From Deltaproteobacteria bacterium PRO3 (GTDB lineage: Bacteria; UBA10199; DSSB01): 44,442 nucleotides of DNA. A program made the translations under genes and the position numbers. Shown here one piece after another: positions 39,390-44,254 of the stretch (position 1 is the first letter of the stretch; each line of letters begins with the position of its first letter). Under the pieces are notes generated by a model. The model was not told the origin of the DNA. It worked only from the letters and a program-made list of their open reading frames with translations, and did not search any database. The stretch is taken from positions 1-44,442 of the forward strand of contig SZOV01000015.1 of the NCBI GenBank assembly GCA_030263375.1, in the 5' to 3' direction.

Positions 39390-39436
39390 AGCAACCATTT
39401 CCGTTTTGATTCGAGAATAAGGCGTCATCGCAAACA

Positions 39437-39476: not shown

Positions 39477-41209
39477 GCGATCCAATCTACGAACGTTTCC
39501 GCTTGCCCGGAATCTCCGTGCAGGAATGCCTGCAGGAGCCCTCCGATCCCAAGAAAGATCCGTGTAAAGTCGAGGCCCGCGAGGCCGAGACGAAGCTGAG
39601 CTTCGTCCTGGAGCGCCGCGAGGGCAAATTTCAGGTCGCTTCCGGCGATGCCGCGAGCGTGACTAAGGCCTTCCCCTCCTTCAAGCCGCCCGCGCGCGAG
39701 ATCGCCGAGTACCTGACGGTCCGCGGCGAGTTCTTCAAGACCCTGGGCGACGAGCAGAAGCCCTTGGAGATCACCAAGCAATTCAAGTTCAAGCACCTGT
39801 TGGGCGAGGGCCAGACCGTGGAGGCCGCGATCGAGAGCTGGGTCAACGTCGTCGCGAGCTTCGTCTCGCACGGCCAGATGGAGCCGAAGGCCGCGAAGGC
39901 GAAGGAATTCCAAGAAGAGGCGGTCATGGTCGCCACCTATTTCTCGGTCGATCCGACGCTTCGCGCCCTCGCCGTGAAGACCCTTCAGGGTCTCAAGGGC
40001 AACGAGAAGCTGGGCGCCGAGAGCCGCAAGCGCGTCGAGTGGCTCTTGGTCGTGCTCTCGGTGCAGGAAGCGATGCTGGCGCATTTCAAGCCGACCATGG
40101 ACAAGTCGCAGGCGATCAGCGACGAGCTGCGGGCGCGCAGCAGCGGACTGATCCAGTTCCTGTTCTGCAACCACATCCTGGCCGACAAGGGGACCAACGA
40201 CAAGCTCGCCACGCCGTCGGTCCAGGGCAGCGCGAAGGTCTTTCACGACGTCTTGTCCAAGGTCGACCCCCACTATAATGCCGCGAAGAATTATTACGCC
40301 TACATCGCCTCCGCGATGAAGGCCTTGAAGGACACCGAGGTCCCCACCGCCTACCTCAAGGACTTCCGCACCCGCGCCAATTTCATCCAATCGGAGTACG
40401 AAAAGAAGGGCCGCGAGGAGATGCTGAGCCTCCTGGCCGGGCAGGAGGCCGAGAAGTCGCTTCGGGAATATTTGATCATCAAGTACGGCGACACGCCCGC
40501 CAAGGCGATGGTGATGGAGACCTTCCTGAAGCACATGAAGGTGAAGGTTGCCAAGGGCAAGCCCCATTTCGAGTTCAACATGGAGAAGGCCGCCAAGGAG
40601 ATCCAGGACGACCACGCCGCCCTCCCCCTCGAGATGAAGGCCCGCGCCTCGGTCGCCCTGCTGGACGTCCTGCAAGGGCTCTTCGAGAAGAGCGGCAAGA
40701 TGGAGATATTCTGGGACAAGAAGCTTCAGGAGACGGACAACTTTTACTCAAGCTTTCCGCTGATGGGCGCCAACAAAAACGCCCTGGAGAAGCTGATCCT
40801 CTGGGCGCGCGGCGAGGCGAAGGACGCGAAGGATCCCCTCGCCCCGCAAAAGATCCCGCATGTCGCCGTCCGCAAATGGACCCTGCTGACCGAGCTGGGC
40901 ATCGGCGTCGCAGGCACCGCGACGGCGCTGTCCCTGTTGGCCGTCGACGAGAGCGAGGAGCGCTGGTGGGGCCAGGGCGCGGCGACGATCACGGCCGGGG
41001 CCGGCTTCGGCGCGGCGGCGGGCAACGCCCTCTCTTACGCCCTCGACATCGACCAGGGCGATTGGGCCTTCGACTTGGGGGGCTCCCTCATCGGCGGACT
41101 GGCGGCGGGCCTGACCTACGGTTTCTTGGTGCCGAAGCCCGGCGGCGGCCAGCTACCCCCGCAGCCCGATCCCGGACGCCGTTACCCGGTCGATCCCTAC
41201 GGGCCCTAA
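39473..41209 (+). CDS. Unrecognised family protein, first of two tandem paralogues (glycine-zipper membrane C-terminus)
   Basis: 578 aa; no family recognised. No signal peptide. Residues 1-460 are predicted mainly helical and charged, with conserved blocks shared with the next gene: DPCK near residue 25, SHGQMEPK, ESRKRVEWLL, KPTMDKSQ, DPHYNAAKNYYAYI, REYLIIKYGDTPA, LFEKSGKMEIFWDKKLQ and TDNFY. Three hydrophobic, Gly-rich segments follow (about 471-491, 503-525, 534-553), the last with a glycine zipper (GGSLIGGLAAG). The protein ends in the motif DPGRRYPVDPYGP. The ATG at 39473 matches the paralogue's beginning and follows an AGGGG SD. A large soluble domain plus a membrane-inserting tail could mean a membrane-anchored scaffold or a pore-type effector; this is a guess. 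Confidence 0.8.
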   Translation: MGDPIYERFRLPGISVQECLQEPSDPKKDPCKVEAREAETKLSFVLERREGKFQVASGDAASVTKAFPSFKPPAREIAEYLTVRGEFFKTLGDEQKPLEITKQFKFKHLLGEGQTVEAAIESWVNVVASFVSHGQMEPKAAKAKEFQEEAVMVATYFSVDPTLRALAVKTLQGLKGNEKLGAESRKRVEWLLVVLSVQEAMLAHFKPTMDKSQAISDELRARSSGLIQFLFCNHILADKGTNDKLATPSVQGSAKVFHDVLSKVDPHYNAAKNYYAYIASAMKALKDTEVPTAYLKDFRTRANFIQSEYEKKGREEMLSLLAGQEAEKSLREYLIIKYGDTPAKAMVMETFLKHMKVKVAKGKPHFEFNMEKAAKEIQDDHAALPLEMKARASVALLDVLQGLFEKSGKMEIFWDKKLQETDNFYSSFPLMGANKNALEKLILWARGEAKDAKDPLAPQKIPHVAVRKWTLLTELGIGVAGTATALSLLAVDESEERWWGQGAATITAGAGFGAAAGNALSYALDIDQGDWAFDLGGSLIGGLAAGLTYGFLVPKPGGGQLPPQPDPGRRYPVDPYGP

Positions 41210-41289
41210 GACGCCAAGAAGCGGTAAAAGCCTTTCATCGCAACTTTTGCCCTCGTCTTCCGAGAAAGAGGCACCTAAGCAACCCACAC

Positions 41290-41319
41290 CTCGAAAACGG
41301 CCTCTGATCCGTTTTTGAG
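41290..41319 (+). terminator. U-rich stem-loop after the first paralogue (terminator-like)
   Basis: CTCGAAAACGG (41290-41300) pairs with CCGTTTTTGAG (41309-41319) over 11 bp with one G-U pair and an 8-nt loop. The T-run sits inside the stem, not after it, so it may be a weak terminator or an RNA fold. Its last three bases are shared with the next structure, making the two partly exclusive. Confidence 0.5.
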
Positions 41320-41396
41320 GAAAACTCTGTATTTTCGGGTATTTAGGTACGGGGCACACAGGGAAGCTGTCTGGCTTCCTCACAGAGATTTTCCTC
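41317..41396 (+). ncRNA. Structured intergenic RNA candidate between the tandem paralogues
   Basis: GAGGAAAACTCTGT (41317-41330) pairs with ACAGAGATTTTCCTC (41382-41396) with a single bulge, closing a 51-nt region. Inside, GGAAGC (41362-41367) pairs with GCTTCC (41374-41379) over a 6-nt loop, leaving about 31 unpaired or differently folded bases (41331-41361). A long closing helix with a purine-rich internal part and an apical hairpin is the outline of an aptamer or small RNA. I do not recognise any known class. It is followed by the RBS hairpin at 41449-41489. Confidence 0.5.
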
Positions 41397-41448
41397 ATCC
41401 GCGGACACGGCGCGGCCTTCGACCTGCCGTTCCCGGACCTCCTTCCTT

Positions 41449-41489
41449 GTGTTTCCCGCCTAAGCACCTCACGAATAGGGCGGAAACAC
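41449..41489 (+). promoter_or_regulatory. Ribosome-binding-site-sequestering hairpin of the second paralogue
   Basis: GTGTTTCCCGCC (41449-41460) pairs with GGCGGAAACAC (41479-41489) over 11 bp with one bulged C. The right arm contains the only SD-like purines (GGCGGA) and ends one base before the ATG at 41491. Translation would need this helix opened. This is a typical form of an expression platform; its control signal is unknown. Confidence 0.5.
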
Positions 41490-41490
41490 G

Positions 41491-43248
41491 ATGAGCGATC
41501 CAGCCACCAAGCTACCCACTTACAATATTTTTGAAATCCGCAGCACGACCGCGGAATGTCTCGAGGCCCCGGCCGACCCCGCGAAGGATCCTTGCAAGAT
41601 CCAGGCGGAAGAAGTGGAGAGCGGGCTCAGCATCTCGCTGGAGCGCAAGAACGGGACATTCCAGCCGGCCTCCGCCGATGCCGCCAAGCTGCTCAAGGTA
41701 TATCCGAACTTCCGCGCCCCCGCCGCCGAACTGGCGGAATACTTGGCGGTCAAGGCGGAGTTCTCCAAGGTCTTCGGCGACGAGCAGAATCCCTCCGACA
41801 TCTTCAAAAAGATCAGCATCGTCTTCGAGGGCAAGGAAGTCCCCGACAAAAATCGGGCGATCTTCAATTGGTTCAACATCACCACCAACTTCATCTCGCA
41901 CGGCCAGCTGGAGCCGAAGCACGCCAAGATGAAGAGCCTGCAGGAGACCACGATCAAGGTCGGAGCCTTCGCCTTCGCCGATCCGGTCTTGGGGACGATG
42001 GTCGAGAAGGTCCTGAAGGGGCTCAAGGACAACAGCAAGCTGTCCTCGGAGAGCCGAAAGCGGGTCGAGTGGCTGCTGGGCATCTACGCGACGCGCGAAA
42101 AATTTTGGGCGGCGATGAAGCCGGCGATGGACAAGTCGCAGAGCGTCAGCGACCAGCTGAAGCCGCGCAGCGTCGACTTGCTGATCGTCCTCTTCGCCAA
42201 CCACGTCCTGGCGGAGAAGGGTTATGCGAGCTATCTTTATTCCGACGAGGTCAAGGGCGCGGCGAAGGTCTACCACGACATCTTTTCCAAGATCGATCCC
42301 AACTACAACGCCGCGAAGAACTATTACGCCTTCATGAGGGACTCGGTCTCCAGCCTGCGGAGCGTGGACCTCCCCGAGGCGGCGAAGAAAGAGCTGCTGC
42401 TGCGCATCGCCTTCCTCGAAAACGAATACGGCAAGGCGGCCCAAAAGGAGATGACGGATCTCCTCTCGGCCCAACCCGCCGAGTCCGCCTTCCGCGAGTA
42501 CCTCGAGATCAAGTACGGCGACACGCCGGCCCGCGCCGGCGCCCTGAAGATCATCCTCGCCGGCCTGACCTTCAAGTCCGGCGAGGAAGGCACCGGACAT
42601 TCCTTCGCGATGGAGAAGATCTCCCGCGAGCTGCACCTGTGGGTCGACGGCAAGGCCGGGGACCAGCGCAAGGAGGCCCTGGAGGCGATCAATCACCTCT
42701 TGAAGGCCCTCTTCGAGAAGGACGGCAAGATCGAGGTCTTTTGGGACAAGCAGGTCCAGACGACCGACAACTTCTACAAGACGGGCAATTTCTCGATCCT
42801 GAGCAACAACAAGAAGGCCTTGGAGGATCTGATCGTCTGGGCGCGTAATGCCGCCACCGAGGAGAAGCTGAAGCTGTCCCCGGATAACACGCCGCACGTC
42901 GCCCTGCGCAAATGGACCTTGGGCACCGAGCTCGGGATCGGCGTGGCGGGGCTGGGCGTCGGCACCGCCTTGGCCTTCGCGCCCATCAAGGACCAGAACG
43001 GTCAATACTTCACGCAAGGAAGCTCGATCATCTTGGGCTCCTCGGCCCTCGGCGCGGCGGGAGGGAATCTCCTGTCCTACAAGCTCAACGTCACCAAGAA
43101 CGCCTGGCTCTTCGACGCCGGCGGCGCCTTGGTCGGCGGTCTGCTGGGCGGGCTGATCTACGGCCTGGTCACCCCGCCGCCTCCGGCCTTCGGCGGCGGA
43201 AAGACCGATCCCGGTCAGAGGTTCCCGGTCGACGGCTACGGGCCTTGA
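41491..43248 (+). CDS. Unrecognised family protein, second of two tandem paralogues (glycine-zipper membrane C-terminus)
   Basis: 585 aa, about half identical by eye to the preceding protein along its whole length. Shared blocks include DPCKIQAEEVESGLSISLER, FISHGQLEPKHAKMKSLQE, ESRKRVEWLLGIYA, KPAMDKSQSVSDQLKPRS, DPNYNAAKNYYAFM, REYLEIKYGDTPARAGALK and FWDKQVQTTDNFYKTGN. The C-terminus has three Gly-rich hydrophobic segments (about 478-498, 511-530, 539-560; GGALVGGLLGGLIYG) and ends DPGQRFPVDGYGP. There is no signal peptide. The two copies have diverged while keeping membrane tail and terminal motif, which argues that both are functional. A 281-bp structured spacer precedes it. Function unknown. 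Confidence 0.8.
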   Translation: MSDPATKLPTYNIFEIRSTTAECLEAPADPAKDPCKIQAEEVESGLSISLERKNGTFQPASADAAKLLKVYPNFRAPAAELAEYLAVKAEFSKVFGDEQNPSDIFKKISIVFEGKEVPDKNRAIFNWFNITTNFISHGQLEPKHAKMKSLQETTIKVGAFAFADPVLGTMVEKVLKGLKDNSKLSSESRKRVEWLLGIYATREKFWAAMKPAMDKSQSVSDQLKPRSVDLLIVLFANHVLAEKGYASYLYSDEVKGAAKVYHDIFSKIDPNYNAAKNYYAFMRDSVSSLRSVDLPEAAKKELLLRIAFLENEYGKAAQKEMTDLLSAQPAESAFREYLEIKYGDTPARAGALKIILAGLTFKSGEEGTGHSFAMEKISRELHLWVDGKAGDQRKEALEAINHLLKALFEKDGKIEVFWDKQVQTTDNFYKTGNFSILSNNKKALEDLIVWARNAATEEKLKLSPDNTPHVALRKWTLGTELGIGVAGLGVGTALAFAPIKDQNGQYFTQGSSIILGSSALGAAGGNLLSYKLNVTKNAWLFDAGGALVGGLLGGLIYGLVTPPPPAFGGGKTDPGQRFPVDGYGP

Positions 43249-43251
43249 GGT

Positions 43252-43280
43252 TTGACAAGGCCCGCCCAAGGGGCTAACGG
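43252..43280 (+). promoter_or_regulatory. Candidate promoter of trxB
   Basis: Consensus TTGACA (43252-43257) lies just behind the paralogue stop; TAACGG (43275-43280) is 17 bp further. SD GAGG follows near 43304, before the ATG at 43316. The -10 is imperfect. Confidence 0.45.
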
Positions 43281-43315
43281 TAGCACCTCAAAATTCATCG
43301 TTTAGAGGTGCATTC

Positions 43316-44254
43316 ATGAGTTCTCCTGTCCACAAGGTCGTCATCATCGGATCCGGCGCCGCCGGCCTCACCGCCGCGGTCTACGCCGCGCGCGCCAACC
43401 TCGAGCCCGTCGTCATCGACGGCACCCTGCCCGGCGGCCAGCTCACCACCACGACCGAGGTCGAAAATTTCCCCGGCTTCCCCGAGGGCGTGATGGGCCC
43501 CGAGCTGATGGAGCGGATGCGCCAGCAGGCCCAGCGTTTCGGCACGCAGATCCAATTCGACCAGGTCCTCGAGGCCGACCTGGCCTCCAACCCTAAGAAA
43601 TTAAAGCTGGGCCAAGGCGAGATCCAGGCCCACGCCGTCATCATCGCCACCGGCGCCTCGCCGAAGCTGATCGGCCTCGAGGCCGAAAAGAAACTGATGG
43701 GCCGCGGGGTCTCAACCTGCGCCACCTGCGACGGCGCCTTTTTCCGCAACGCCGACCTGATCGTGGTGGGCGGCGGCGACTCGGCGATGGAGGAAGCGAC
43801 CTTCCTGACCAAGTTCGCGAAAAAGGTCTACGTGGTGCACCGCCGCCGCGAGCTGCGCGCGAGCAAGATCATGCAGGAGCGGGCCTTCAAGAACGAGAAG
43901 ATCGAGTTTATCTGGGATTCGGCGGTGGAGGACATCCTGAGCGAGGGCAAGAACGAAGTCACCGGCGCCCGGATCAAGAACCTCAAGACGGGCGAGACAA
44001 AAGATATGAAGGTCGACGGCGTCTTCGTCGCAATCGGCCACACGCCCAATTCCGCGCCTTTCGCCAAGCAGCTGAAGACCGACGAGAACGGCTACATCCT
44101 GGTGACGAAGGGCTCGGCGACGGACATCCCGGGCGTCTTCGCGGCCGGCGACTGCGTGGACCACGTCTACCGCCAGGCCATCACCGCCGCGGGCATGGGC
44201 TGCATGGCGGCCTTGGACGCCGAACGATATCTGGCGGCGCAGGGGATTGAGTAG
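43316..44254 (+). CDS. trxB: Thioredoxin-disulfide reductase
   Basis: 312 aa, normal length. FAD/NADPH enzyme that reduces thioredoxin in the cytoplasm. FAD motif IGSGAAGLTAAVYAARANLE, conserved GGQLTTTTEVENFPGFP, active-site disulfide CATC (135-138) in STCATCDGAFFRN, NADPH motif VVGGGDSAMEEATFLTKFAK, and the late AAGDCVDHVYRQAITAAGMG. It has its own promoter and is probably independent of the paralogues upstream. Confidence 0.96.
   Translation: MSSPVHKVVIIGSGAAGLTAAVYAARANLEPVVIDGTLPGGQLTTTTEVENFPGFPEGVMGPELMERMRQQAQRFGTQIQFDQVLEADLASNPKKLKLGQGEIQAHAVIIATGASPKLIGLEAEKKLMGRGVSTCATCDGAFFRNADLIVVGGGDSAMEEATFLTKFAKKVYVVHRRRELRASKIMQERAFKNEKIEFIWDSAVEDILSEGKNEVTGARIKNLKTGETKDMKVDGVFVAIGHTPNSAPFAKQLKTDENGYILVTKGSATDIPGVFAAGDCVDHVYRQAITAAGMGCMAALDAERYLAAQGIE

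Follow-up and report, generated by a model that had tools for sequence, protein, structure and literature searches.

Our best explanation for the spacer between the paralogous genes g1 and g2, to which we give nearly an even chance, is that of a translation-level leader RNA with a FliA-type promoter of its own, a conserved hairpin masking the Shine-Dalgarno (SD) sequence of g2, and an alternative fold between a conserved internal block (CE1) and the masking strand (strand 3). The promoter motif, the SD hairpin and the conservation of CE1 come from the comparison of genomes; what we infer is the transcription start, hairpin-mediated repression and, most of all, the switch.

In this explanation, g2 would be transcribed from its own promoter (41240-41266), yielding a leader of about 215-220 nt; in it, g2 translation would be limited by strand 3 (41445-41470) covering the SD strand (41475-41489). 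Since CE1 is complementary to strand 3, the leader could adopt two forms, one with CE1 on strand 3 and the SD free, and one with strand 3 on the SD and the SD masked. According to the folding models, the free form would precede the masked one during transcription, and the latter would win once the first codons had been made; translation would then be confined to nascent or specially bound transcripts.

Setting of the spacer and order of its elements

The window, i.e., the whole stretch of 44,442 nt that was analysed, corresponds to contig C15 in full, from a draft genome of 3.55 Mb (G000). The gene order is ssb, g1, the spacer, g2 and trxB, and the spacer length of 281 bp (41210-41490) given in the sequence-only reading was correct. 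The two paralogues are 47% identical. No Pfam or NCBIfam family was assigned to either at cut-off, and structure prediction of the paralogue protein yielded a mean pLDDT of 67 (low confidence), with a fold search returning no significant match. Orthologous spacers were obtained from three relatives: G001 and G002, which belong to the same genus (G002 with 78% DNA identity), and G004, which belongs to the same family. All four-genome comparisons comprise these and the source genome; two relatives of the latter are recorded as Deltaproteobacteria MAGs. G003 has a single paralogue copy between ssb and trxB. Within the source genome, a search for further copies of the spacer revealed chance-level matches only. 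The features are the following:

39391-39417, + strand: FliA/sigma28-like promoter motif upstream of g1
39473 (start codon) to 41209 (end): g1, first paralogue
41240-41266, + strand: FliA/sigma28-like promoter of g2, GCAAC-N15-CCGAGAA, at the same place in 4/4 orthologous spacers
41273-41285, + strand: strand 1, ACCUAAG..ACCC, which can pair with strand 2
41289-41320, + strand: stem-loop 1, 12 bp, 41289-41300 with 41309-41320
41317-41396, + strand: bulged helix with apical hairpin (helix 2), not conserved and probably not functional as drawn
41337-41363, + strand: strand 2, containing CE1 TTAGGTACGGGGCACA (41343-41358), an SD mimic
41445-41470, + strand: strand 3, the masking (anti-SD) strand, predicted by folding to pair with strand 2 or the SD strand
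41475-41489, + strand: strand 4, the SD strand AUAGGGCGGAAACAC of g2, masked by strand 3
41491-43248, + strand: g2, second paralogue, 585 aa

Common to all four spacers was the order of a promoter-like GCAAC-N15-YCGARAA motif, a hairpin, a TTAGG/TTTGG block, N3-GGGGCACA (CE1) and the hairpin over the g2 SD. A CACCTAAGCAACCCAC-like direct repeat was present at both leader ends (41272-41286 and 41461-41475), of which 17 nt are identical in G002. The segment CGGCGCGGCCTTCGACCTGCCGTTCCCG (41408-41435) has several partial matches elsewhere in the genome and in G002, and may be ordinary GC-rich sequence.

Putative FliA-like promoter and the genes it precedes

The FliA-like motif, which was found in 4/4 spacers and is absent from the sequence-only reading, is located 5' of all structures proposed for the spacer. 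A transcript from 41240-41266 would contain all of them, starting, as we infer, near 41272-41276. In G002, G003 and G004, this motif also lies upstream of g1 or of its single-copy relative. Exact matches in the genome numbered 17, compared with 5 for the reversed pattern, and the motif was likewise in excess in four relatives. At some sites of this promoter set the canonical CCGATAA was present, and several sites precede genes for lipoprotein-, signal-peptide- or outer-membrane-like products, as read from the sequences.

The consensus of FliA promoters is TAAA-N15-GCCGATAA. The promoters found here are alike in the -10 element (CCGATAA/CCGAGAA) and in the 15-nt spacing, but differ in the -35 element, which is GCAAC, and occur in a genome where, as in the six relatives, a search revealed no flagellin. 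For E. coli FliA sites, see PMC4183435. A FliA/WhiG-family sigma gene was found in the source genome (G000:C12:38562-39188) with a score of 139.8 bits, which is below the curated cut-off of 189.6, and the family was also found, below the curated cut-off, in each of the six relatives. Neither a sigma70-like promoter nor an intrinsic terminator was found in the spacer. The promoter at 41240-41266 is likely to be real. A sigma54 site (GG-N10-GC around GGGGCAC) was considered and rejected, as the spacing, by reading, fits G004 only. As a separate observation, a FliA/WhiG-family sigma factor and FliA-like promoters before envelope-type genes occur here together in a lineage without detectable flagellin.

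SD hairpin, CE1 and proposed alternative pairing

The hairpin that had been proposed to cover the SD of g2 was recovered, pairing G41449-C41489 to C41456-G41482 and continuing with CCUA/UAGG, with a stability of approximately -18 kcal/mol at 37 °C and z-scores of -2.8 and -4.0 in two shuffle computations. The four genomes all retain it (z -4.0, -4.1, -3.6 and -1.9), built on GTGTTT. Three substitutions in the 3' arm of the G004 hairpin are each still paired; these were read from the sequences by hand, because MAFFT misaligned that hairpin. Covariation is thin, since the comparison comprised no more than four orthologous spacers, of which two are close.

The accessibility of the g2 SD region was 0.25, compared with 0.51 as the median of the 34 starts that were examined across the window. 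The SD of trxB was also found in a hairpin (43260-43320; GCACCTC...GAGGTGC just before the ATG), with an accessibility of 0.13. Given such masked SDs at other starts, masking is not unique to the promoter set, and it is conservation, not fold energy, that carries the argument. The whole leader folded better than 300/300 dinucleotide shuffles (z -3.9). As the spacer has a putative promoter of its own and a conserved leader, the last hairpin of which hides the g2 ribosome-binding site (RBS), it is quite probable that RNA folding, through the SD hairpin, limits g2 translation. In the folding model, the hairpin seems too stable for simple RNA-thermometer melting.

CE1 (TTAGGtacGGGGCACA, 41343-41358), to which the sequence-only reading made no reference, shows the highest conservation of any block inside the spacer, being conserved where the remaining spacer is not. 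It is located 60-140 nt upstream of strand 3 in the four genomes, and the segment in between varies from genome to genome in both length and sequence. CE1 is complementary to strand 3 because it resembles the SD strand. When the complements of strand 3 were ranked over 800 nt to each side, CE1 came first to third in each of the four genomes, and the stabilities of the CE1:strand 3 duplexes (-23.6 to -27.3 kcal/mol) were reached by 1, 2, 8 and 1 of 500 shuffles. Partition-function calculations on the prefix ending at strand 3 revealed the CE1:strand 3 duplex to form with 16-20 pairs in 4/4 genomes; on the leader plus 25 nt of the open reading frame (ORF), the SD hairpin formed with 12-16 pairs and CE1 retained less than one pair, again in 4/4 genomes. 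In a stricter control, where the upstream leader was shuffled, equal strand 3 pairing was obtained in 13/300 cases here, 4/300 in G002, 222/300 in G001 and 139/300 in G004, by which the switch is significant only here and in G002. The pairing of strand 1 with strand 2 exceeded that of shuffles in G001 and G004 only, not in the source genome. The complementarity of CE1 to the anti-SD strand could be a by-product of its SD likeness. A switch of CE1 between the two modelled folds is a tentative proposal, somewhat short of an even chance. A small ORF started by CE1 was discarded, being without a conserved start codon.

Alternatively, strand 3 may form a plain masking hairpin that constitutively lowers g2 translation, with CE1 as a ribosome standby site and no switching. 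The conserved SD hairpin and the SD-like CE1 at its distance from strand 3 would suit this reading, and tisB, where standby takes place about 100 nt 5' of the sequestered RBS, is a precedent (PMC7708055); the present leader resembles that of tisB in its sequestered RBS and an upstream element 60-140 nt away. Unlike in the tisB leader, however, CE1 is both SD-like and complementary to the masking strand; its match to strand 3 extends well past the SD-like core, and in the nascent leader it is predicted to be paired, not single-stranded. We consider this reading rather unlikely, yet the most serious of the alternatives.

It is improbable that CE1 is a leftover of the tandem duplication, i.e., an old RBS that was copied with the promoter and displaced by later insertions, having no regulatory role, with the SD hairpin being incidental. 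The resemblance of CE1 to the g1 SD regions here and in G004 (TTAGGGGACACACCATG-like and ATAGGTGGGCACAGCCATGG) is consistent with such an origin, as is the variable segment between CE1 and strand 3, but G004 keeps both CE1 and the SD hairpin even though its g2 protein is only 49% identical and the other spacer sequence is hardly alignable.

Of the two structures proposed 5' of the SD hairpin, stem-loop 1 was confirmed (-17.2 kcal/mol, z -5.6 as a cut-out). It has an equivalent in 4/4 genomes (z -3.1, +0.1, -2.5 and -2.2), which is strong in three of them but only average in G002 (+0.1), and of unrelated sequence in the more distant G001 and G004. The bulged helix at 41317-41396 folded as drawn when excised (-29.9 kcal/mol, z -4.0) and within 41310-41445, but was replaced by other pairings in a 121-nt fold including stem-loop 1 and in a 221-nt fold. 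Its outer stem amounts to -17.6 kcal/mol here versus -5.3 kcal/mol in G002, the closest relative, where a 33-nt insertion splits it, and no counterpart was seen in G001 or G004; the stem loss in G002 rules out helix 2 as a conserved element. The sharing of bases 41317-41319 by the two structures was correctly noted, and mutual exclusion is real, but the conserved competitors are others, namely the SD mimic (41343-41358) and the masking strand (41445-41465). The refuting condition of the sequence-only reading, an absence of compensatory changes, goes against helix 2 and not against the SD hairpin.

The earlier proposal of a cis-regulatory RNA that ends in an SD-sequestering hairpin and belongs to no known class is supported by the hairpin in four genomes, the upstream promoter motif and the Rfam 15 search, which gave no match at the gathering threshold in the window and none up to an E-value of 10 in 40900-41800. 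Its aptamer-like domain is not supported: conservation is lacking in the long helix, and stem-loop 1, which keeps its place and not its sequence, is for that reason a poor fit to a ligand-binding core. Among the four sequences, a conserved hairpin over the SD, as in SD-sequestering translational leaders, was found in all, whereas a core conserved in sequence and structure, as in ligand riboswitches, was not, as G002 has lost helix 2 and the sequence of stem-loop 1 is unrelated in G001 and G004. A ligand riboswitch is unlikely, and one with the first two structures as its aptamer scarcely credible; the structured leader with its SD platform and the z-score of the whole leader would agree with it, but a conserved core and an Rfam match are both missing. 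Scarcely credible, too, is a role of CE1 in the DNA, as an operator or within another promoter, instead of in the RNA: GGGGGCA-like blocks do recur downstream of the same promoter at other genes, but their distance to the promoter varies widely, their enrichment in leaders of this genome is weak and not clear (5/12 versus 4/24 control regions), and the spacer lacks a detectable sigma70-like promoter.

Likeness to known leaders and the same layout at other genes

Attenuators of the erm type (ermC, ermB) work by alternating strands: the SD is held in a hairpin, from which an upstream strand can release it. An upstream strand could likewise free the hairpin-held SD in the present leader, but a leader peptide is missing, as reading of the four leaders revealed no conserved start codon or ORF before strand 1 or after CE1, and the strand 1:strand 2 pairing is significant in two genomes only. 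In the MS2 maturation gene, hok and H. pylori aapA3, the folds formed during transcription are not those of the finished RNA and determine access to the SD (PMC6733600); in aapA3, the early hairpins mask the SD. The predicted early fold of the present leader also differs from the final one; unlike in aapA3, it is the early fold that is predicted open and the late fold closed, and neither a toxin nor an antisense RNA is involved. In its logic, the leader appears closest to erm-type attenuators, kinetically timed leaders and standby leaders, with membership in none of them established.

Gene B, which codes for 680 aa on contig C54, also has this FliA-like promoter, together with GGGGGCAC upstream and a GGAGG that is masked. 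The layout is retained, with altered sequence, by the gene B relatives of G002, G003 and G004, and, comparing G004 with the source genome, two pairs beside the SD were changed on both sides (U-A to C-G and C-G to A-U). Across the promoter set, SD regions were less accessible (median 0.38, 22 leaders) than at control starts (median 0.53, 31 starts), with a p-value of 0.004 that is optimistic because orthologues were counted among the 22 leaders.

In a wider and speculative model, which we regard as unlikely in its entirety, a FliA-like sigma factor, in a lineage without detectable flagellin, would control genes for envelope and secreted proteins, and an SD mimic in the leaders of these genes would compete with the SD for the masking strand, leaving translation open on nascent RNA and shut on completed RNA, all without the involvement of a ligand, a leader peptide or an antisense RNA. 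Should our best explanation of the leader be right, promoter class and leader design would be coupled, the genes of one alternative sigma factor also tending to hide their RBSs, and a simple, ligand-free mechanism would time or limit how envelope proteins are translated in an uncultured group of bacteria.

Two further leaders deserve mention. At another gene with the FliA-like promoter (L062 and L084, divergent promoter), GGGGGCACCTTAAGC...AAGGAGGCCCCCAATG was found, where the pairing across the SD is made by the GGGGGC block itself, and this is kept in G004. The single-copy relative in G003 (L043:300-400) carries, between the promoter and the start codon, a hairpin that resembles a terminator and has a U-rich tail (GCTAAGTG...CGCTTAGTGTTTTTATTTT), which is a possible attenuator.
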